Assembly: GCA_036382775.1 (NCBI GenBank)
Contig: DASVHD010000046.1
Location: 1 to 64,000, forward strand
DNA length: 64,000 bases
Reading direction: 5' to 3'
Source of the DNA: a bacterium
GTDB lineage: Bacteria > Hydrothermota > Tepidihabitantia > SM23-42 > JAOAFX01
Each line of letters opens with the position of its first letter. Within the stretch, counting starts at the first letter, position 1. Under the pieces are notes generated by a model. It had not been told where the DNA came from and did no database searches. It worked only from the letters and a program-made list of their open reading frames with translations. The position numbers were made by a program, and so were the translations under genes. Of the stretch, positions 15,295 to 25,105 are shown in pieces.

Positions 15295-15473
15295 TTTCAA
15301 ACGGCACCTTTAATATTTCCCCTGCTGTTTGTCCCGTTAGAGAAAATTGCCTATCTAAATCGGTGGTTGTTTTCCAACAAAGCAGACAGAGGTTCAATAT
15401 TACCATTGCGCATTCATGTTAGATCGTAGAGTTCTCTAACGGGATTTGTTGTCTATGACACCAGGATGTTGTG
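15295..15473 (+). repeat. Structured ~175-bp repeat, copy 1
   Basis: The outer inverted repeat is CCCGTTAGAGAA (15333-15344) and TTCTCTAACGGG (15432-15443), flanked left by a TTCAAACGG...CTGCTGTTTGT arm and right by ATTTGTTGTCTATGACACCAG. This is the most diverged interior of the family. The right end runs directly into a comM relic. Confidence 0.88.
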
Positions 15474-15602
15474 CCCGCCGGCCGTTCAACTTGGGGAGGA
15501 TGATGCCGTCCAGGCCGTTCTCCCGGCTGGCCAAGTCCACCTCAACCTCGACGAGATAGCCGTCGATGCCGAACGTCGCGCAGGAAAGGACTTTGGCTAA
15601 AT
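15463..15602 (-). pseudogene. comM relic, three collapsed fragments
   Basis: Translated on the minus strand, this stretch gives AKVLSCATFGIDGYLVEVEV, which matches the ComM N-terminus seen at residues 3-22 of the intact copy. It is joined to GLDGIILPKLNG, matching the ComM segment SGVIVPKQNG, and then in another frame to GGHNILV, the residues just before Walker A. The pieces are in the correct order but everything between them is deleted, and there is no start codon. It is a remnant of a second, diverged comM gene whose end coincides with the right end of repeat copy 1. The neighbouring intact comM is ~3.2 kb upstream. Confidence 0.75.
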
Positions 15603-15606
15603 GGAT

Positions 15607-15771
15607 TTACAGACCGAGCAAGATTACAACACCGGTCGCGATGGCCAAGATCGCCATTATCAAATACAGACCTGCAATGTTCACATGGAATAATGAGAAC
15701 AGACCGGTCAGAATAAGCCAGATGCTCAGCAAGATCATGCCCACGCTTTTTGTTAGTTTAATATTACTCAT
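15607..15771 (-). CDS. 54-aa membrane protein of unknown function
   Basis: The small protein has two predicted transmembrane helices: VGMILLSIWLILTGLFSLF, and a second from NIAGLYLIMAILAIATGVVILLGL to the C-terminus. The start is set by a strong AAAAGGAGG a few nt before this ATG; an upstream in-frame ATG (15798) has no such signal. A consensus promoter lies upstream. Function is unknown. It stands alone between two copies of the structured repeat. Confidence 0.65.
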   Translation of the reverse strand: MSNIKLTKSVGMILLSIWLILTGLFSLFHVNIAGLYLIMAILAIATGVVILLGL

Positions 15772-15848
15772 TGTGTTACCTCCTTTTGTTGTTTTCAATT
15801 GAAAATCAACTCTTTTTAATTATTCGGTATCATTAACAAAATCAGGAA

Positions 15849-15876
15849 ATTATAATTCTATTTTATGATTTGTCAA
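15849..15876 (-). promoter_or_regulatory. Promoter of the 54-aa membrane protein gene
   Basis: Minus strand: TTGACA (15871-15876), 16-nt spacer, TATAAT (15849-15854). The leader is about 70 nt. Confidence 0.75.
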
Positions 15877-16062
15877 TCCCCAAGGCAACGTTTCGGCATG
15901 ATCTTTATAGCTCAAACAAGTTGTAAAAGAAACGAATTGAATCGATATTAATCCGATAAATAGGTGCCACGTTGCTGATTACCCGGGGTTGGTGGGGTAG
16001 ATTGACGCCCTGATTCGACAGTCGGCAATTTTCTCTCCATTATCCAAATTTACTTGTAACTT

Positions 16063-16237
16063 CAAACGGAATTCTGAAACATTTACTGCCTGTTTGTCCC
16101 GTTAGAGAAAATCACTGGTTTCAATCGGTGGTTGTTTTCGAACCAATAGATAGTGATTTAATACCAAAGCCGCGCATTGCCGTGAAAGGGCAGAGTTCTC
16201 TAACGGGATTTGTTGTCTATAACGCCAGGATGTTGTG
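16063..16237 (+). repeat. Structured ~175-bp repeat, copy 2
   Basis: Left arm CTTGTAACTTCAAACGG, outer stem CCCGTTAGAGAA / TTCTCTAACGGG, inner hairpin CACTG...CGGTG (with one T-G wobble), second hairpin TGCC...GGCA, right end TTGTCTATAACGCCAGGATG. The 15877-16062 stretch before it holds no gene that I can see. Confidence 0.9.
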
Positions 16238-16319
16238 GCATGATATATAAGGGGTTGGTTAGTGACAGTGAAGAGAAGGTCGAAAATAAGAAGCTGGTGA
16301 TCGTGTAATCCCGTCCACA

Positions 16320-16347
16320 TTGACTTCAGTAATAAATTATATATAAT
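16320..16347 (+). promoter_or_regulatory. Promoter of the 16363 membrane protein gene
   Basis: TTGACT (16320-16325), 16-nt spacer, TATAAT (16342-16347), then CAGGAGG ahead of the ATG. Confidence 0.7.
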
Positions 16348-16362
16348 TTTCAGGAGGATATT

Positions 16363-16920
16363 ATGACCAAAAGAATGCTTATGTCCCTTGTATTGAAGAT
16401 TTTAGCTGTGATGGCTATAATGTACGGTATTACACTTGTTCCATTAATATTTTTTGCATTAACAGTTCAATTTTCTCCACTGCATGTTGATGCCATGAGT
16501 TGGTATGCATGGCATTGGTATTTAGTAATGGCAATAGCACAACCGCTTGTTTTCTTCGTATTGGCATTTATATTATTACGATGGTGCGATTTCTTCGCCA
16601 GGAAATTAATAACTGATGATAGCTTAATCACAAGTGCCATAGGAGATGAGTGGGAAAAACAATTCTTTACGCTTGCATTACGCATAATAGGTGTTGTATG
16701 CGTGGTATATGGAATCCCGCTATTAGTAGAGAATGCATGTCAACTTAAATTTATGTCATGGTGGGGTAATCCCTTTGAATGGGCAAAAATAGTAAGTGGT
16801 TTTGTTTTGATCTTCACTGGCATATATTTATTATCAGGTGGTAAACGAGTTGTCGCATATGCTTTTAGGGTGCCACATCATAAAGATGAATCCTCAAACA
16901 ATGGTAATACCAATCAATAA
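16363..16920 (+). CDS. Four-helix membrane protein of unknown function
   Basis: No family recognised. The 185-residue protein has four predicted membrane helices: ILAVMAIMYGITLVPLIFFAL; WHWYLVMAIAQPLVFFVLAF; the third around LRIIGVVCVVYGIPLLV; and the fourth around IVSGFVLIFTGIYLLSGG. A hydrophilic tail (HHKDESSNNGNTNQ) follows. The two halves resemble each other (IMYGI...PL and VVYGIPLL), suggesting an internal duplication of a two-helix unit. CAGGAGGATATT precedes the ATG. It sits alone between repeat copies 2 and 3. Confidence 0.6.
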   Translation: MTKRMLMSLVLKILAVMAIMYGITLVPLIFFALTVQFSPLHVDAMSWYAWHWYLVMAIAQPLVFFVLAFILLRWCDFFARKLITDDSLITSAIGDEWEKQFFTLALRIIGVVCVVYGIPLLVENACQLKFMSWWGNPFEWAKIVSGFVLIFTGIYLLSGGKRVVAYAFRVPHHKDESSNNGNTNQ

Positions 16921-16942
16921 CAACTAAGATTCTTATTGAGCC

Positions 16943-16967
16943 GTATAAAAATATCTATTTTTTATAC
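16943..16967 (+). terminator. AT-rich hairpin after the 16363 gene
   Basis: GTATAAAAA pairs with TTTTTATAC around a 7-nt loop, 22 bp after the stop codon. The stem is weak (mostly A-T), so this is a possible rather than a proven terminator. Confidence 0.4.
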
Positions 16968-17047
16968 AGGCATTTAATAATTGACTAGTCGACAAATGAT
17001 CCAAGGATTGATTCATTGAGTAATATCCTTATTTTTAACCAACCTCA

Positions 17048-17230
17048 CTTGTAACTTCAAACGGAATTCTGATATATTTACTGCCTATTTGTCCCGTTAG
17101 AGAAAATCACTGGTTTCAATCGGTGGTTGTTTTCGAATTAACAGACAGTGATCTAATGCCAGCGTCGCGCATTGCCGCGAATGGGCAGAGTTCTCTAACG
17201 GGATTTGTTGTCGATAACACCAGGATGATA
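17048..17230 (+). repeat. Structured ~175-bp repeat, copy 3
   Basis: It has the same arms and outer stem as copy 2. After ACACCAGGATG it continues with GATAGCGCCTACCTG and an ACGCGCACCCTGAAGGGTGC hairpin, an extension shared only with copy 5. Confidence 0.9.
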
Positions 17231-17244
17231 GCGCCTACCTGTAA

Positions 17245-17360
17245 AAAATACGCGCACCCTGAAGGGTGCGGCTACATTTTCAGGAAATCACGACTGGATT
17301 CCCGATTGCTCGGGAATGACACCCCTCACCCTTACCCTCTCCCACAAGGGGCGAGGGAAT
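17245..17360. repeat. Mosaic of short palindromic repeats (17.2 kb)
   Basis: Three unit types are joined: the CGCACCCTGAAGGGTGCG hairpin, GGATTCCCGATTGCTCGGGA with AATGAC, and a CCCCTCACCCTTACCCTCTC unit. The same units recur near 19.1, 21.65, 23.5, 24.9 and 27.3 kb. No gene is seen from here to 17535. Confidence 0.8.
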
Positions 17361-17535
17361 GAAATATTGGAACATAAGATTGCTTCATCGCTTGACTGAG
17401 GATAAAATAATCATATACTATTGCGAAGAGTGGAGATGATAGAAACGGGAAATTGGGGATGATTGGGTTGATGTGTCGCTATACATCACATTCAGTCAGG
17501 TTCTGACAGGGGCATTAAGCCAATAGGAGGTTAAA

Positions 17536-19023
17536 GTGTTTGATAGAAAAATGTACTTGCTGGTAGGCTTCATCCTGGTGAGTTTGATCTATGCTCTGCC
17601 AGTGGAACAGAGTACCGCAGAAGCAGTAGCGAATTCCAGATTGGTTCATGATGGTCGGCAGGAAGATCATTCGATCGCCTCCCTCACTGTCATCAAGGAC
17701 GATGAGACCGCTTCTGCACTGGCCTATGTATTTGAACTGGACCCGACTGGTTACGTGATAGTGGGAGCGGATAATCAGCTCCCGCCGGTCATTGCATATT
17801 CCTATACGAATCTCTGCCGGGATGACCGGTATGACAGGAACATCCTTTTCGACATTGTAAAGAGAGATATCATCGCCCGGCTCGCCAACGCCGGCAGCAT
17901 TCCGAAGGGGATCAAGACCAAGTACGAAAAACAATGGCATGAGTATATCACGAGGGATTTTGTCACTCTGGCACCGGCTCTGTTTGAACAATGGCCTCCT
18001 GCCGGTTCGACGCCCACCGGAGGATGGCTCATGGAAAACTGGAGCCAGGGTGCTCCGTACAATTCCTACTGTCCCATGGATAATAATGCCGGGCAGAGGA
18101 GTGTCGCGGGATGTCCCGCAGTAGCCATGGCAGCCATCGTGAACTTTCAGGAGAAGATAAACGGAACGCGATTCGATGATAGTGATGACTACTACCACAA
18201 CTTCTATGAGCAATACTGGATCGACGATGATCATGTGGCTCATGATTTCCCATCCTGGCCGGAGTTGGACGTGTACCTGGATACGCTGGAAAACCACTAC
18301 GCCCAGTCGATCCCACCTACTTCATCTGACAAGGCGGCTCTGGTGTTCGCCAGCGGGGTTGCATGTCATCAGGTATATTCGGCCTCGATTTCCGGTACCT
18401 ACGGCATCACCCAAGCAGCAATCGCATATCAAAGATTCAACTTTGTTGAATCTGAACTCCTGTATGATTCATCTGCATACCTGTTCGAGAGATTGTCTCA
18501 GAATATGATGGACGCCATGCCGGCACATATGGGCATAGTGGATGAGGGGCCGACCTACGGCCACAATATAGTTGTTGATGGTTACAATACCGATTCTTTC
18601 TACCACTTCAATTTTGGCTGGAGTGGCAGCTACAATGGATGGTATCAGTTCCCGCTGACCGGTATGCCATACGGCATGAACATCATAGAAGGGATCATTC
18701 TCGATATCGGTGACAGTAGTCAGTACCGGGTAAAAGACGCAGATGACCTACAATCGGGCGGAATATTCCTGACCATGGCATGCTCAGGCAATCCGGTCAG
18801 ATCAGATCTTGGCATCCGCATTACTCTGCGGCAAACTTGCCATGTGAATCTGGCGATTTACAGCATAACCGGCAGGCTTGTTGCAATACTGGCTGACCGG
18901 GAATTCAGCCGCGGCTCGCATAGACTCAACTGGAATGCGGATGGATTAGCCTCAGGTGTATACATAGTCAGTGCAATGAGCCCTCAGGGAAGGGTTTCGG
19001 AGAAGATCATAGTACTGAAGTGA
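17536..19023 (+). CDS. Secreted C10 (streptopain-like) cysteine protease with C-terminal sorting domain
   Basis: C10 peptidases are secreted papain-fold enzymes made as zymogens. A signal peptide (MYLLVGFILVSLIYAL) is followed by an I69-type prodomain (~25-145; FELDPTGYVIVGADNQLPPVIAYS is characteristic). The catalytic domain has NWSQGAPYNSYCP and AGCPAVAMAAI (nucleophile C193), YGHNIVVDGY (H343) and FNFGWSGSYNGWY. Cys/His spacing matches streptopain numbering closely. The last ~85 residues are a sorting tail (VNLAIYSITGRLVAILADREFSRGSHRLNW...GVYIVSAMSPQGRVSEKIIVLK). A GTG start follows TAGGAGG by 5 nt. A serpin is encoded 3 kb downstream; although serpins usually inhibit serine proteases, some inhibit papain-like enzymes, so the pairing is notable but unproven. 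Confidence 0.88.
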   Translation: MFDRKMYLLVGFILVSLIYALPVEQSTAEAVANSRLVHDGRQEDHSIASLTVIKDDETASALAYVFELDPTGYVIVGADNQLPPVIAYSYTNLCRDDRYDRNILFDIVKRDIIARLANAGSIPKGIKTKYEKQWHEYITRDFVTLAPALFEQWPPAGSTPTGGWLMENWSQGAPYNSYCPMDNNAGQRSVAGCPAVAMAAIVNFQEKINGTRFDDSDDYYHNFYEQYWIDDDHVAHDFPSWPELDVYLDTLENHYAQSIPPTSSDKAALVFASGVACHQVYSASISGTYGITQAAIAYQRFNFVESELLYDSSAYLFERLSQNMMDAMPAHMGIVDEGPTYGHNIVVDGYNTDSFYHFNFGWSGSYNGWYQFPLTGMPYGMNIIEGIILDIGDSSQYRVKDADDLQSGGIFLTMACSGNPVRSDLGIRITLRQTCHVNLAIYSITGRLVAILADREFSRGSHRLNWNADGLASGVYIVSAMSPQGRVSEKIIVLK

Positions 19024-19079
19024 TTCCCTGTAGACCATGAGGAGCAGTATTGGCATCGACGAGCTCATACGAAAGATAC

Positions 19080-19390
19080 TATTTACGCGCACCCTGAAGG
19101 GTGCGGCTACAATTGTGACAATCAAGACTGGATTCCCGCTTGCGCGGGAATGACATATTGGAACATGAGATTGCTTCGCACAGAGATCACTCGCAATGAC
19201 ACCCCTCACCCTTACCCTCTCTCCCATAGGGACTCCAGCATCAAACTTTCTATAATGTTGCCTCAAGGGGCGAGGGAAACAAGTGTGACTACATTTTCAG
19301 GAAATCAAGACTGGATTCCCGCTTGCGCGGGAATGACATATTAGAACATGAGATTGCTTCACCCTGCCACGCAGGGTTCGCAATGACAAA
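19080..19390. repeat. Mosaic of short palindromic repeats (19.1 kb)
   Basis: CGCACCCTGAAGGGTGCG, two copies of GGATTCCCGCTTGCGCGGGA with AATGACA, a CCTCACCCTTACCCTCTC unit and two GAGATTGCTTC...CGCAATGAC units. No gene is seen between 19024 and 19490; 19391-19490 is purine/AT-rich filler. Confidence 0.8.
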
Positions 19391-19490
19391 TTAACTTAAC
19401 AGATAGTAAGCGTATCAGATTATCAGACAATCAGGTAGTGGATATCAGGTTATCAGGAGACCAGATTAACAAGAAAAGCAAAAAAGGATA

Positions 19491-21305
19491 TTACTTAATT
19501 GCAATGATTTTCTTGTTAAGGCGTTTATCCGTGGATTCCAGCGATACAATATAAACGCCGCTTGGTGCTTTTTTGCCTTGATCGTCGGTCCGATCCCAAT
19601 AAATCTTGAATTGTCCGGTGCCTTTGATCTTAAAAAGATTCTTCACAACCCTGCCCGCGGCATCATATATAGCTATTTTTGTATTGCCATACCCATATGT
19701 GCTGATATCCATCCAGACGCGATCGGAAAATTGCGTCGGGTAGACATTAAGTTCGCTAATTTGTGCCAACGGTTGTGCCTTTTGCTCATCGACCGCAACC
19801 AGTGGCAGGATCGTGAAATTCATATGAGTCACGGCTATTGCCGTATCCGAACTTGTGGTTGCAGTGTAGCGGATATAGCAGTTGGTCGAGGTCGGAGAAC
19901 CTGCCGGAATGAGCCATTGATACCGGCCATTGTTAGGTACGCTCGCCACTATCTGGGTCCAGGGACCCGCAGAGCCATTGGTCGAAAGTTCAAGCCTGAC
20001 CGACGCGGTATTGCCCGCGGGAACACCGCAGGTCCAGTTGATGAAATGCACCGAGTTCCGATAAAGCTTCTCGCCGCCCCTGGGAAACACGGGAAAAATA
20101 AACAGGCTTTCCGGAACCGAGCTTTCCTTATAGAAGCGCAGCCGGTTTACCGGGTTCATGCCGGTGCCTTCTCTGCTGACCAGGGCAATGTCGGGGTAGC
20201 CGTTATGATCTGCATCCGCTGCCACGCGGAAAGCCGCCATGTAGCCGGGATAGGTCGTTTTGAAGGTTGTATCGAGGGTCCAGTTCCCGCTGCCGTTTCC
20301 CAGCCAGACCGAGACAACGCTGTCGCCGAACGCGCTCAAATCCATAAAACCGTCAATGTTCATATCGCAGAGCTGGGTATTGTAGTAAGGCCCGGATGTC
20401 GGCAGGGTCCCGGAGAAATTAGCCCAGGTATTGCCGCCCAGCCATTGCCACACTTCCACGCCGCCGCTGGCATTGCGAAAGGCAAAATCCTGGTCGCCGT
20501 CATTGTCAACGTCGCCAATAGAAGGACCGCGCCTGCCCGAAGTGCCGCCGGGCGGCAGGTTTCCGTCGGCCAGGGTAAATCCTCCGCTGCCGTTGCCCAG
20601 ATAAACGCTGCCGTACTGGTGACCGGCGCAGTAGTCTGCGTAACCGTCGGCGTTGACGTCACAAAACAAAAAATCCATCGAGGAATTGCCGCCCAGGAAT
20701 CCGAAACACTGATGCCAGGTTCCGTCAAGGTGATTGATGAAAATATGGTTGCCGTCATCGGCACCGAACGCGTTGCCGCCCAGATCAAGGTCGCCATCGT
20801 TATCAATATCGGCGAAATCCGTGCAAAACATCCCCCATGCGTTAGGATCGCCGATCGAAATGCCGTCGTCCCACGGCGTCCAGTTCTGGCCCGTGCCGTC
20901 GCCCAGCGCGGCTTCGATCACTGAATCGCCGAAATCAACGCCGGAATAGTTGTGGTGCATGCCGTAACCAATATCCATGAAGCCGTCGTTATTAATGTCG
21001 CCGATCGCGATGCCGCCGTAGCCGAATTCACCGTTCTGGTAAACGCTCCATGAACCCAGGCCATTGCCGAACCAGACCATGACCCCGTGCTCCTGGGTGT
21101 TGACATAGGGACTGCCATGGTCGCCGATCGACAGGATGTCGATATTACCGTCAGCGTTGATGTCCGCCATTTCAAGTTCGGTCCTGCCTGCTTCCATCTG
21201 AGGGGTACTGAGGCCCTGCGATGATTCCACGTAGCTCAGCGCATGAACCGTCAGCGGTATAAAACAGAGAAACAATATATTGACTAGTTTTGTGTTGTTC
21301 TTCAT
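19491..21305 (-). CDS. Secreted FG-GAP/VCBS repeat protein with C-terminal sorting domain
   Basis: A signal peptide (LVNILFLCFIPLTVHALS) is followed by a beta-propeller of FG-GAP/VCBS repeats. Each repeat carries a calcium-binding loop of the type DxNxDGxxD: DINADGNID, DINNDGFMD, DIDNDGDLD, DVNADGYAD, DVDNDGDQD, DMNIDGFMD, DADHNGYPD. A linker Ig-like region (GEKLYRNSVHFINWTCG...) leads to a sorting tail (LNVYPTQFSDRVWMDIS, TKIAIYDAAGRVVKNLF, KKAPSGVYIVSLES, final KKIIAIK). It is predicted surface-exposed, probably adhesive or carbohydrate-binding, but no ligand can be read. The chosen ATG has GGAGG 5 nt upstream; the longer frame (ATG 21326) lacks it. Confidence 0.85.
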   Translation of the reverse strand: MKNNTKLVNILFLCFIPLTVHALSYVESSQGLSTPQMEAGRTELEMADINADGNIDILSIGDHGSPYVNTQEHGVMVWFGNGLGSWSVYQNGEFGYGGIAIGDINNDGFMDIGYGMHHNYSGVDFGDSVIEAALGDGTGQNWTPWDDGISIGDPNAWGMFCTDFADIDNDGDLDLGGNAFGADDGNHIFINHLDGTWHQCFGFLGGNSSMDFLFCDVNADGYADYCAGHQYGSVYLGNGSGGFTLADGNLPPGGTSGRRGPSIGDVDNDGDQDFAFRNASGGVEVWQWLGGNTWANFSGTLPTSGPYYNTQLCDMNIDGFMDLSAFGDSVVSVWLGNGSGNWTLDTTFKTTYPGYMAAFRVAADADHNGYPDIALVSREGTGMNPVNRLRFYKESSVPESLFIFPVFPRGGEKLYRNSVHFINWTCGVPAGNTASVRLELSTNGSAGPWTQIVASVPNNGRYQWLIPAGSPTSTNCYIRYTATTSSDTAIAVTHMNFTILPLVAVDEQKAQPLAQISELNVYPTQFSDRVWMDISTYGYGNTKIAIYDAAGRVVKNLFKIKGTGQFKIYWDRTDDQGKKAPSGVYIVSLESTDKRLNKKIIAIK

Positions 21306-21357
21306 ATAAACCTCCATTTTTATCAAAAGTTGTACATTTATTAATTATTACTACTAT

Positions 21358-21385
21358 ATTATATGAAATAATCACGCAAAAACAA
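21358..21385 (-). promoter_or_regulatory. Promoter of the VCBS-repeat gene
   Basis: Minus strand: TTGTTT (21380-21385), 16-nt spacer, TATAAT (21358-21363). The leader carries GGAGG. Confidence 0.65.
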
Positions 21386-21472
21386 GGGGAGAGGTTGAGA
21401 TCAAATCCGTATACCGTAGGCTGTAATCCGTAATCGGCATACGACAGCGCAGTGATGCAGTGTAGCAAAAAA

Positions 21473-21522
21473 GGGAGTCAACTCGTAAGAGTTTTATATA
21501 AAAGCCTCACGGCTTAACTCCC
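21473..21522. repeat. GAGTTAACTC...GGCTTAACTCC palindromic repeat, copy 2
   Basis: Inverted relative to the copy inside the 4409 gene; same twin-hairpin layout. Confidence 0.8.
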
Positions 21523-21639
21523 CGGCTTAAATCCACCTCTTAAGGTTGTTCTCCCGCTTATGGAGCGCGGGATGCTCATTGTTGTAGTCACATCAAAGAT
21601 GTGAACAAAATTGGCATCGACAAGCTCATACGAAAGATA

Positions 21640-21765
21640 CTATTTACGCGCACCCTGAAGGGTGCGGCTACATTTTCAGGAAATCAAGACTGGATTCCCG
21701 ATTGCTCGGGAATGACAGAAAAAACATGAGATTGCTTCGTCCCGCTGTGCGGGGCTCGCAATGAC
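21640..21765. repeat. Mosaic of short palindromic repeats (21.7 kb)
   Basis: CGCACCCTGAAGGGTGCG, GGATTCCCGATTGCTCGGGA with AATGACA, and a GAGATTGCTTCGTCCC...CGCAATGAC unit in sequence. No gene is seen between 21306 and 22161. Confidence 0.8.
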
Positions 21766-21895
21766 GACGGGGGTTGAAACGACAATAAGGCACAAAAGCG
21801 TTCCTCGAACCATATTTCCAAAAATGTCAAGTAGTAGTAGACATATTTAGCCCAATTTTGTCTACCAATCCCAGCTGCTTTTTTCAGTTGGTCAG

Positions 21896-22059
21896 TATTT
21901 CCCCTACTGTTTGTCCCGTTAGAGAAAATCACCGATTTCAATTAGTGGTTGTTTTCGAATAAAACAGATAGAGGTTCAATATTGCCCTCGCGCATTCCCG
22001 CAATGGGGAGAGTTCCGGTGCTCTAACGGGATTTGTCGTCCATAACACCAGGATATTGT
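21896..22059 (+). repeat. Structured ~175-bp repeat, copy 4
   Basis: The left arm starts later than in other copies (TTTCCCCTACTGTTTGT). Left outer stem CCCGTTAGAG; the right arm has a small insertion, GTTCCGGTGCTCTAACGGG. Hairpin II is TCCC...GGGA where copies 2 and 3 have TGCC...GGCA, a compensatory change. It ends 5 nt before the serpin -35 element. Confidence 0.88.
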
Positions 22060-22064
22060 ACATA

Positions 22065-22092
22065 TTGACTTCACCCAAAAACCTCATATAAT
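22065..22092 (+). promoter_or_regulatory. Promoter of the serpin gene
   Basis: TTGACT (22065-22070), 16-nt spacer, TATAAT (22087-22092). It abuts repeat copy 4. Confidence 0.72.
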
Positions 22093-22161
22093 AGACAAAC
22101 GATAAAGTAAGATATGGATGGTAGTATCAAAATGAATTGTAAGATTTGGAAGGAGGCTAAT

Positions 22162-23433
22162 ATGAAGAATATGATGTATGGTTTTATAAGGGTCGCCGGT
22201 TCATTCTTTTTAATGCTGATCATCTTCTGCATTATTATATCCTGTAAAACTAAAAATAAAGATGCCGGAGCAGATAAGAACAAATCGGTTCCTGGTAGTG
22301 TTAGTGCAGTCGTAGATGCCAGCAACCAGTTCGCCTTTGAACTTTATCGAAAATTCAATGAAAGATCAAAGGACGAAAATATATTTTATTCACCATTCAG
22401 CATCACAGTCGCTTTAACCATGGCTTATGAGGGTGCGAGAGGACAGACCGCAAAAGAAATGCAAAAAGTCCTTCATATCCCCGAAACCGCTGATTTAAGA
22501 AGAATAATTTTTGCAAAAATAATAAATGAGATAAATAAGAAGGACAGAAAATACAAACTTTCCACAGCTAACGCTTTATGGGCGCAGATGGATTACAAGT
22601 TCCTTGCTGAATATTTATATACTATTGATAAATATTACGGCGGGAAGGCAGCTAATCTTGATTTCGAAAGGCATTGCGAAGAATCCCGCGATACGATCAA
22701 TTCTTGGGTTGAAGACCAGACTAATGGTAAGATCAAAGACCTAATTCCACCGGGAAAAATTGACGCTTCTACCAAGCTGGTTTTAACCAATGCTATCTAT
22801 TTCAAAGGAACGTGGGTTATGCAATTCGATAAAAAACGCACAAGGGAAGGGGATTTTGAAACAAGTCCAGTTCAAAAGGTAATGGTTCCCATGATGCGTC
22901 TTACCGGCGGAAATACAGAATTAAAATATGCCGAAACAGAAGATGTACAGATACTGGAAATGCCATATGAAGGCAAAGACCTATCGATGGTGATAATTCT
23001 TCCCAGAGGAAAAAGATTGGATGAAATAGAAAAATCCATCACTTTAAAAAAATGGTCAGAATGGCGGAGCATGCTCAGGGAAAAAAGCGTGGATGTTTAC
23101 ATCCCGAAGTTCAAATTTGATGCGAAGTATTATATGAACGAGTTTTTGAAAAAAATGGGTATGCGGTCGTCATTTGGCGAACATGCTGACTTTTCGGGAA
23201 TGGACGGTACACAAATGCTTTATATTGAAAATGTGATCCATCAGGCATTCGTTGAAGTAAACGAAGAGGGGACTGAAGCCGCAGCCGCAACTGAGGTGAC
23301 CATGGATTATATAAGTGATGAAATATTTGAAGAATTCAATGCCAACCATCCTTTTATCTTTGCCATACAAGAGCGGAATACGGGAAATATACTATTCTTA
23401 GGAAGAGTCAGCGATCCCAGTAAATCCCTTTAA
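22162..23433 (+). CDS. Lipoprotein serpin (serine/cysteine protease inhibitor)
   Basis: Serpins trap proteases by inserting the cleaved reactive loop into a beta-sheet. Landmarks are visible in order: NIFYSPFSITVALTMAYEGARGQTAKEM, LSTANALWAQ, LVLTNAIYFKGTW, DLSMVIILPRG, VIHQAFVEVNEEGTEAAAATEV (hinge with small residues, as in inhibitory serpins) and FNANHPFIFAIQERNTGNILFLGRV. The N-terminus carries a lipoprotein signal ending IIISC, so the inhibitor should be membrane-anchored. The start is set by GGAAGGAGG; an upstream in-frame ATG (22114) is not supported. The scissile P1-P1' bond lies in the DYISDEIFEEF region but is not assigned. The gene is bounded by repeat copy 4 and a strong terminator. 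Confidence 0.9.
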   Translation: MKNMMYGFIRVAGSFFLMLIIFCIIISCKTKNKDAGADKNKSVPGSVSAVVDASNQFAFELYRKFNERSKDENIFYSPFSITVALTMAYEGARGQTAKEMQKVLHIPETADLRRIIFAKIINEINKKDRKYKLSTANALWAQMDYKFLAEYLYTIDKYYGGKAANLDFERHCEESRDTINSWVEDQTNGKIKDLIPPGKIDASTKLVLTNAIYFKGTWVMQFDKKRTREGDFETSPVQKVMVPMMRLTGGNTELKYAETEDVQILEMPYEGKDLSMVIILPRGKRLDEIEKSITLKKWSEWRSMLREKSVDVYIPKFKFDAKYYMNEFLKKMGMRSSFGEHADFSGMDGTQMLYIENVIHQAFVEVNEEGTEAAAATEVTMDYISDEIFEEFNANHPFIFAIQERNTGNILFLGRVSDPSKSL

Positions 23434-23451
23434 AGATTAAGGACAATACAA

Positions 23452-23494
23452 TTCTCCAGCAGGATTTGTTGTCTATAACACCAGGATGTTGTGC
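23452..23494 (+). repeat. Structured repeat, right-end fragment (copy 6)
   Basis: Only the right arm is present, as GGATTTGTTGTCTATAACAC followed by CAGGATGTTGTGC, directly after the serpin gene. Confidence 0.8.
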
Positions 23495-23507
23495 ACGTTC
23501 GCAAAAT

Positions 23508-23581
23508 CATTCGCACCCTTAAGGGTGCGGCTACATTGTTTTCGTTAGCAAAAAGGGTTGGTTTTCACCAACCCCTTTTTG
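23508..23581 (+). terminator. Hairpin repeat plus rho-independent terminator
   Basis: A CGCACCCTTAAGGGTGCG unit is followed by AAAGGGTTGGT-TTTC-ACCAACCCC-TTTTT. The stem, flanked by A and T runs on either side, can act in both directions. It separates the serpin gene from the convergent methyltransferase gene. Confidence 0.82.
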
Positions 23582-23731
23582 TGTGCTGTTTTTGTGTGGA
23601 GCATTTGCCAAAACTGAAATGAAGATACGGAAAAAGCATCTTGCCTTTGTTAATTATTCGGACTAATAATCCTTTTAGGCACTTTTGGCTTCAAACCAGC
23701 GTTTGGTTGACCCTTTCATTTTTCTGGCGGG

Positions 23732-24643
23732 TCACACTTTCTGAAAAACCTTGCTGAGGTATATTCTCTTGCGGTTCTCCAGCGATTTATATACTCTTGT
23801 TCCTTTTACTGCCGCGAATTCGCGCATCATCTTGTGCATGAACTTTGGCGCCAGGTATTTTATTGTGTTTAGTTTTCCGTCGTGATCAAGTTTAAGTGCG
23901 CGGAGAACCGATGAGGTGATATCCCATTCCCTTATCGCGCGGAGCCCGGAATCCCGGAAATGCCGGTTAGTTCTATCTGAGCAGCGTTTCCAGAGTATGT
24001 CGGTCCAGGAAAAGAAACCGCCCGGCCTCAAGACCCGTACTGCTTCACGGATAAAATCGTTCATGGATTGATAACAATGTGAAGATTCAACGTTGATAAC
24101 GGCATCAAATGATCGGTCGGGAAATGGTATTTTCATGGCATCGCCGACCCGGAACGAAAGATTGGGTTGCGAATATATACGGTTGCACAGATCTACTGCG
24201 TTCTTGGAAAAATCTATACCGACAATGGATTTTGGCTTAAGATACCGGGCCAAATAAAAACAACCGCCACCCCGGCCCGATCCGACCTCCAGAACATCTT
24301 TGTTCATTATGTTTGCGGGAGCGGCCACGTGATGATAGAGTTGAATGCAATACCGATCAGCCTCGTCACTGGTAAGCAAAGCCAATTTTTCCTCACCGTT
24401 CAAATGGGCATAGCCATAATTCATAAATGTCCATTCACGTTGGGTATACCGGGCAGTAAGATGTTGATACCAGCAGTTTATTAAACGGCTTCTTATTCCT
24501 GGGGTAAGAAATAAAATGGATTCAATGAATTGATTTAGCATTGCAAACGGCGATTTCCATCCATTAAAGGGCATATTAACCATAATTTTGAAAAAGTCAA
24601 GGAAATTATTAGAGAACTCTGAAGAAATATTCATCGCTCTCAT
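23732..24643 (-). CDS. Class I SAM-dependent methyltransferase, phthiotriol-methyltransferase-like
   Basis: The 303-residue enzyme has the Rossmann methyltransferase motif I VLEVGSGRGGGCFYLAR, acidic motif II SIVGIDFSKNAV, and a motif with SFDAVINVESSHCY followed by VRVLRPGGFF. The pre-domain FMNYGYAHL and the DEADRYCIQLYHHVA segment resemble mycobacterial phthiotriol/phenolphthiotriol O-methyltransferases, as does the ESSHCY pairing. That points to a lipid or polyketide alcohol substrate, but the true substrate is unknown. The gene stands alone; no lipid biosynthesis genes are adjacent. The start ATG lacks an obvious Shine-Dalgarno sequence and an in-frame ATG follows at codon 3. Confidence 0.78.
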   Translation of the reverse strand: MRAMNISSEFSNNFLDFFKIMVNMPFNGWKSPFAMLNQFIESILFLTPGIRSRLINCWYQHLTARYTQREWTFMNYGYAHLNGEEKLALLTSDEADRYCIQLYHHVAAPANIMNKDVLEVGSGRGGGCFYLARYLKPKSIVGIDFSKNAVDLCNRIYSQPNLSFRVGDAMKIPFPDRSFDAVINVESSHCYQSMNDFIREAVRVLRPGGFFSWTDILWKRCSDRTNRHFRDSGLRAIREWDITSSVLRALKLDHDGKLNTIKYLAPKFMHKMMREFAAVKGTRVYKSLENRKRIYLSKVFQKV

Positions 24644-24712
24644 GATTGAATAAAAATTTTGGGGTCACCTATGAAAAAATTGCTGTGCACAAATTTATCC
24701 AGTATTCTTCAC

Positions 24713-24890
24713 GATTTCAAATGGAACCTTCAGCATTTCCCTGCTGTTTGTCCCATTAGAGAAAATCACCGACTTCAATCGGTGGTTGGTTCCTAACAAA
24801 GCAGACAGAGGTTCAATAATACTGTTGCGCATTCCTATGTAATAGTAGAGTTCTCTAACGGGATTTGTTGTCTATAACACCAGGATGATA
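24713..24890 (+). repeat. Structured ~175-bp repeat, copy 5
   Basis: Left arm ATTTCAAATGG..., outer stem CCCATTAGAGAA / TTCTCTAACGGG, a perfect inner hairpin CACCGA-CTTCAA-TCGGTG (24767-24784), and right end TTGTCTATAACACCAGGATG. It shares the GATAGCGCCTACCTG extension with copy 3. Confidence 0.9.
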
Positions 24891-24904: not shown

Positions 24905-25105
24905 AAGATACGCGCACTCTGAAGGGTGCGGCTGCATTTTAAAAAACCAAAACCGGATTCCCGATTGCTCGGGAATGACCCCGATTGGAAATGCTATTGC
25001 TGACGGGGCGGACAGAAAACAGATGAGATTGCTTCCCCTCGTTCCTCGGGACACCAGCATTTTAATTTTCCTAATGTAGCGCACAAAGATCGCTCGCAAT
25101 GACAA
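24905..25105. repeat. Mosaic of short palindromic repeats (24.9 kb)
   Basis: CGCACTCTGAAGGGTGCG, GGATTCCCGATTGCTCGGGA with AATGAC, and GAGATTGCTTCCCCTCG...CGCAATGAC. No gene is seen between 24644 and 25199. Confidence 0.78.

Follow-up and report, generated by a model that had tools for sequence, protein, structure and literature searches.

The window, which is the whole stretch of 64,000 nucleotides that was analysed, carries five full copies of a repeat and a right-end fragment at 23452, all on the plus strand, as a preliminary description of this DNA had reported. The repeated unit, which was given there as about 175 bp, is about 190 bp long. It had been taken for a single structured unit and turns out to be a composite, in which an inner palindrome of 110–116 bp (about 113 bp), CCCGTTAGAGAA...TTCTCTAACGGG, lies within another repeat. 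The inner palindrome is called B here, and the outer part, a separate intergenic repeat of about 65 bp that is split by B, is called A. CCCGTTAGAGAA with at most two mismatches occurs 15 times in the window, a number reached by 0 of 100 shuffles. The features are as follows.

15296–15473, plus strand: copy 1, whole A+B composite
15328–15331, plus strand: copy 1, left target duplication TTTG (the T at 15332 is the terminal base of B)
15333–15443, plus strand: copy 1, inner palindrome B
15445–15448, plus strand: copy 1, right target duplication TTTG (the A at 15444 is the terminal base of B)
16053–16232, plus strand: copy 2, A+B composite (halves of A before 16097 and after 16208)
16093–16096, plus strand: copy 2, left target duplication TTTG
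16098–16207, plus strand: copy 2, inner palindrome B
16209–16212, plus strand: copy 2, right target duplication TTTG
17048–17227, plus strand: copy 3, A+B composite (TTTG duplications at 17088–17091 and 17204–17207)
17093–17202, plus strand: copy 3, inner palindrome B
21896–22059, plus strand: copy 4, A+B composite with the left part of A shortened (TTTG duplications at 21910–21913 and 22032–22035)
21915–22030, plus strand: copy 4, inner palindrome B, right arm imperfect
23452–23493, plus strand: right-end fragment, a degraded B end with the right half of A
24716–24887, plus strand: copy 5, A+B composite (TTTG duplications at 24747–24750 and 24864–24867)
24752–24862, plus strand: copy 5, inner palindrome B, left arm CCCATTAG

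The outer stem proposed earlier is present, although it is imperfect in copy 4 (TTCCGGTGCTCTAACGGG) and in the left arm of copy 5. Hairpin I and the exchange of TGCC/GGCA for TCCC/GGGA in hairpin II can be seen in the sequence. The shared orientation of the copies is real but is weak evidence at five to six copies. Other short GC-rich palindromic repeats occupy the same intergenic regions (17249–17321, 19084–19154, 21645–21717, and 24909–24981), with the motifs GCGCACCCTGAAGGGTGCGGCTACA, GATTCCCGMTTGCKCGGGAATGAC, and GAGATTGCTTC...CGCAATGAC. Two proteins are encoded between the repeats, at 17536–19023 and 22114–23433: a streptopain-like peptidase of the C10 type, which has an inhibitor propeptide as well as a C-terminal sorting domain, and a serpin of full length.

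Repeat A and its empty sites

Repeat A occurs without B in 14 relatives, mostly of the same order (of 61 genomes searched, 15 have a match to A, including the own genome). Empty A sites in the relatives read CCTG-TTTG-TTGTCTATAACATCCTG, also written CCTGTTTGTTGTC, and carry a single TTTG, whereas the filled sites of the window read CCTGTTTGT[CCCG..GGG]ATTTGTTGTC, and all five copies show TTTG-T[CCCG..GGG]A-TTTG with two TTTG. This difference indicates that B inserted with a 4-bp target duplication. Repeat A is the older part of the composite, and most likely B entered it once, duplicating the 4 bp TTTG. The insertion point is identical in all five copies, and therefore the A+B composite would have spread locally to five nearby sites.

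Repeat A (TGCCTGTTTGTTGTCTATAACATCCTGRTGAGTTGGAC) is intergenic and occurs across the order, forming clusters in the same orientation, for example at 16053–16232, 17048–17227, and other sites of the window, at G023:C98 1203–9459, and at G015:C77 16785–19727 and G015:C9 5676–8787. The earlier remark that the copies separate single-gene units holds for the host repeat A and not for B. A same-strand open reading frame lies downstream of 22 of 31 copies of A, and several copies have a promoter-like site 14–18 bp after the repeat. At two loci (L191 and L203, around position 1525), the right end of A continues directly into a frame with a Walker motif (LMIGPPGTGKTML), which is possibly an in-frame insertion of A in a ComM-like gene.

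Ends, fold, and distribution of B

The ends of B consist of YCCCGTTA followed by a palindromic stem, usually GAGAA/TTCTC, with C:G as the terminal pair in 100 copies and T:A in 17. The targets are short and T-rich, mainly TTTA and more rarely TTGA, TTCA, CTTA, or TTTG. In 101 of 126 copies the two flanking 4-mers match each other exactly, whereas shuffles gave 63 on average and at most 76. Targets other than TTTA/TAAA include 15 matching duplications against 0.6 expected, and about half of the non-TTTA left targets differ from the right side. Insertion is oriented, since TTTA forms the left flank in 64 of 77 well-oriented copies and TAAA in only 1 of 77. Identical inverted ends alone would not give such a preference. 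The copies were also inspected by eye for an IS608-like guide stretch that covaries with the TTTAC site, and the idea was dropped because of counter-examples.

The preliminary description had suspected paired changes, and these are borne out in the internal hairpins across 73 distinct copies. Thirteen pairs within hairpins I and II show changes on both sides, and 108 both-side-changed cells were observed against 42 in shuffles, with 0 of 500 shuffles reaching the observed value. Strong folds are predicted for B. The rare stem variants GAAGC, GAAAG, and CTAATT have both arms altered, with CCCGTTA and the duplications kept. Together, the two-arm stem variants and the covarying hairpins suggest that the folded form of B matters. 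Hairpins I and II are not universal, because some subfamilies keep the ends around unrelated AT-rich interiors that lack them. An Omnitrophota genome has a 117-bp subfamily with a distinct interior (NHSGLACEKVLFLKGGYG...; L103 around 2030 and L088 around 3232), one copy of which abuts another copy and shares TTTAC with it.

The own genome has about 12–13 copies of B on several contigs. One of them (L009) lies directly after a tRNA-Cys gene, and another (L007) sits in frame close to the beginning of a gene that encodes a lipoprotein-like signal sequence. Within the class the distribution is patchy, as the 12-bp end occurs in 15 of 65 genomes; genome G000 has 19 end matches, and the three genomes of its sister genus have none. 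The exact stem pattern, with both arms and a gap of 74–102 bp, was found in at least 118 stretches of genome contigs, a sample biased by the exact-end search and in which perfect outer stems are partly imposed by the pattern. Random sequence would be expected to give about 0.03 (an arithmetic estimate, 2.57e11 bases × 29 gap lengths / 4^24). According to the record titles among the matches listed, the carriers include Omnitrophota, Elusimicrobia, Stahlbacteria/WOR-3, Deltaproteobacteria, Nitrospirota, Auribacterota, Planctomycetes (Phycisphaerae and Scalindua), and several Patescibacteria, one of them a complete Wolfebacteria chromosome. This is a patchy spread over about eight phyla, in which some assignments may be affected by binning errors, as the carriers are mostly metagenome-assembled genomes (MAGs). 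Wholesale contamination is unlikely, because a complete chromosome and dozens of host genes are involved. Genomes carry up to about 50 copies, which within one genome are related and not fully independent, and up to 109 stem-end matches, compared with 0–1 for the reversed pattern. No copy of B matching the exact pattern was found in viral contigs, and none was found in phages or plasmids.

Copies of B inside genes

B is often found within conserved genes, and copies inside coding frames occur in either orientation. The frames through B read TPLEK...SLTG on one strand and PVRE...FSNG on the other, and inspection of the canonical sequence showed one open codon phase of three per orientation. Together, the element and its target duplication often have a length divisible by 3. 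Twenty-two copies have open frames of at least 70 codons on both sides, and 17 of them are in the open phase and in frame (p=3e-5 against one third); this result holds at flanking-frame thresholds of 60–100 codons.

Pfam places inserts in or beside the domains of MutM, GlyS-beta, glutamate dehydrogenase, ProB, MtaB, a histidine kinase, YjeF, and DnaE, and one insert precedes a DapA domain. Residues 11–89 and 131–735 of GlyS-beta align to residues 1–79 and 84–693 of a solved homologue, and ProB and MutM are split likewise against theirs, as clean insertions. A Sungbacteria glutamate dehydrogenase has two separate in-frame inserts, one at RMD|DGS and one near the C-terminus, which likewise stand out as clean insertions against a solved homologue. 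Frame and homology thus show that surviving insertions add about 35–42 residues (often about 38) and leave the gene readable, and the inserts are presumably translated. In prepilins, the element lies between GFT and GFTLVE, within the leader and before the cleavage site (GFTPLEK...LTGFTLVE). The peptidase site follows the insert, so, going by known prepilin processing, cleavage of the leader would remove the extra peptide as well.

Nature of the palindrome and its possible movement

The mobility of B is well supported by these sequence comparisons. The preliminary description had offered two readings, a hairpin-recognised mobile unit and a small RNA or cis-RNA element. The former agrees with the empty sites, the 4-bp target duplications, the patchy multi-phylum spread, the high copy number, and the insertions in genes. 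Selection on the fold of a structured small RNA or a cis-regulatory RNA would account for the strong covariation and the strong predicted folds. However, the copies lie at unrelated sites, many of them in coding frames of both orientations, some subfamilies keep the ends around unrelated interiors, and 4-bp target duplications are present. In addition, a search of the region against Rfam gave only chance matches, with no family reaching the cut-off, and the RNA reading is therefore highly improbable. Slightly less probable still is an integron-like cassette array with the repeats as attC sites. Such sites are likewise folded single-strand palindromes, and repeat A does form same-orientation clusters between genes in several genomes. 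This candidate was rejected, as no integron integrase scored above the cut-off in seven genomes; moreover, inspection of A found no paired attC core boxes (RYYYAAC / GTTRRRY), and both strands carry genes between the copies of the window.

The two remaining alternatives concern the moving enzyme. A classical MITE of a DDE-transposase insertion sequence would share with B the small size, terminal inverted repeats, 4-bp target duplications, high copy number, and absence of a transposase gene. No parental insertion sequence was found in more than 160 copies, no autonomous or cargo-bearing long copy was found among end pairs up to 4.5 kb, and no transposase with B ends was seen among the loci inspected; unpaired B ends are decayed copies, chance matches, or another repeat. 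Identical ends should also give no orientation preference, whereas 64 to 1 was observed, and the stem sequence of B may vary if pairing stays. A MITE is therefore conceivable but not favoured. It is rather unlikely that B is a REP/REPIN or another element of the IS200/IS605 type that a RAYT-like Y1 (HUH) transposase moves in trans, even though such systems also consist of hairpin units moved in trans with widespread single copies. The hairpin ends, the fixed orientation at TTTAC-like targets, and the Y1 transposase genes in all 11 carrier genomes tested speak for it. On the other hand, B ends were absent from all 30 Y1 loci inspected, and the loci among them that were read in detail have other repeats at their flanks. 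That duplications match at non-canonical sites is better explained by target duplication than by an element-owned cleavage site, and coding inserts also set B apart from REPINs. RAYT-like Y1 genes in carriers (flanks of L137 and L145) have their own different repeats, AGGTCTGACCC and CAGCTTTGTGCAAYTTACAGACT.

Taken together, the sequences indicate that B is very probably a non-autonomous mobile palindrome of the hairpin type that is spread across phyla, with oriented insertion at T-rich targets, a 4-bp duplication, internal hairpins, reading-frame-compatible inserts in genes, and local spread as a composite. The sequences show that B integrates in fixed orientation at short T-rich targets and duplicates 4 bp; in the proposed mechanism, a hairpin-recognising transposition enzyme would probably act on the ends and the base-paired form. 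The internal hairpins are kept by compensatory change in most copies. A length often in multiples of 3 and one open phase per strand would allow insertions in genes to survive as extra residues. In the window, one B inside the intergenic repeat A would have given rise to the composite at five nearby sites.

The closest functional parallel is provided by the Rickettsia palindromic elements (RPEs; Ogata et al. 2000), described in a 2024 review (PMC10969869). That review describes in-frame fusions as frequent for RPEs and regards a comparable process in other prokaryotes as merely conceivable. Unusually high frequencies of in-frame coding palindromes have been described for Rickettsia alone. Searches of the open-access literature for the B motif gave only unrelated primer-type matches among the matches listed. 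Both B and RPEs are palindromic, measure about 100–150 bp, occur in many copies, and give in-frame inserts in unrelated metabolic genes with an open frame and a conserved peptide. B would thus fit a functionally similar type, a mobile palindrome tolerated in genes when in phase. In contrast to RPEs, B has fixed ends CCCGTTAGAG, a clear 4-bp duplication, and an orientation-specific target, a distinction drawn on these traits. It is also found in unrelated host phyla, about eight among the matches listed and with no Rickettsia record among them, and prepilin leaders are a recurrent site.

A wider reading is quite possible, though it falls somewhat short of probable. Under it, B may represent a class of coding palindromes shared across phyla, whose movement would be due to a so far undescribed integration enzyme that recognises hairpins and is orientation-specific. 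This enzyme would require only CCCGTTA and a stem of free choice, and its action would add peptides again and again to housekeeping proteins and prepilin leaders of uncultured bacteria. How a small hairpin inserts in a fixed orientation is a concrete question in transposition. The inserts affect the annotation and structure prediction of MAG proteins, such as the prepilins with an insert within the leader. With a second family of this type that spans several phyla, one could test whether selfish DNA serves generally as a source of new protein segments.
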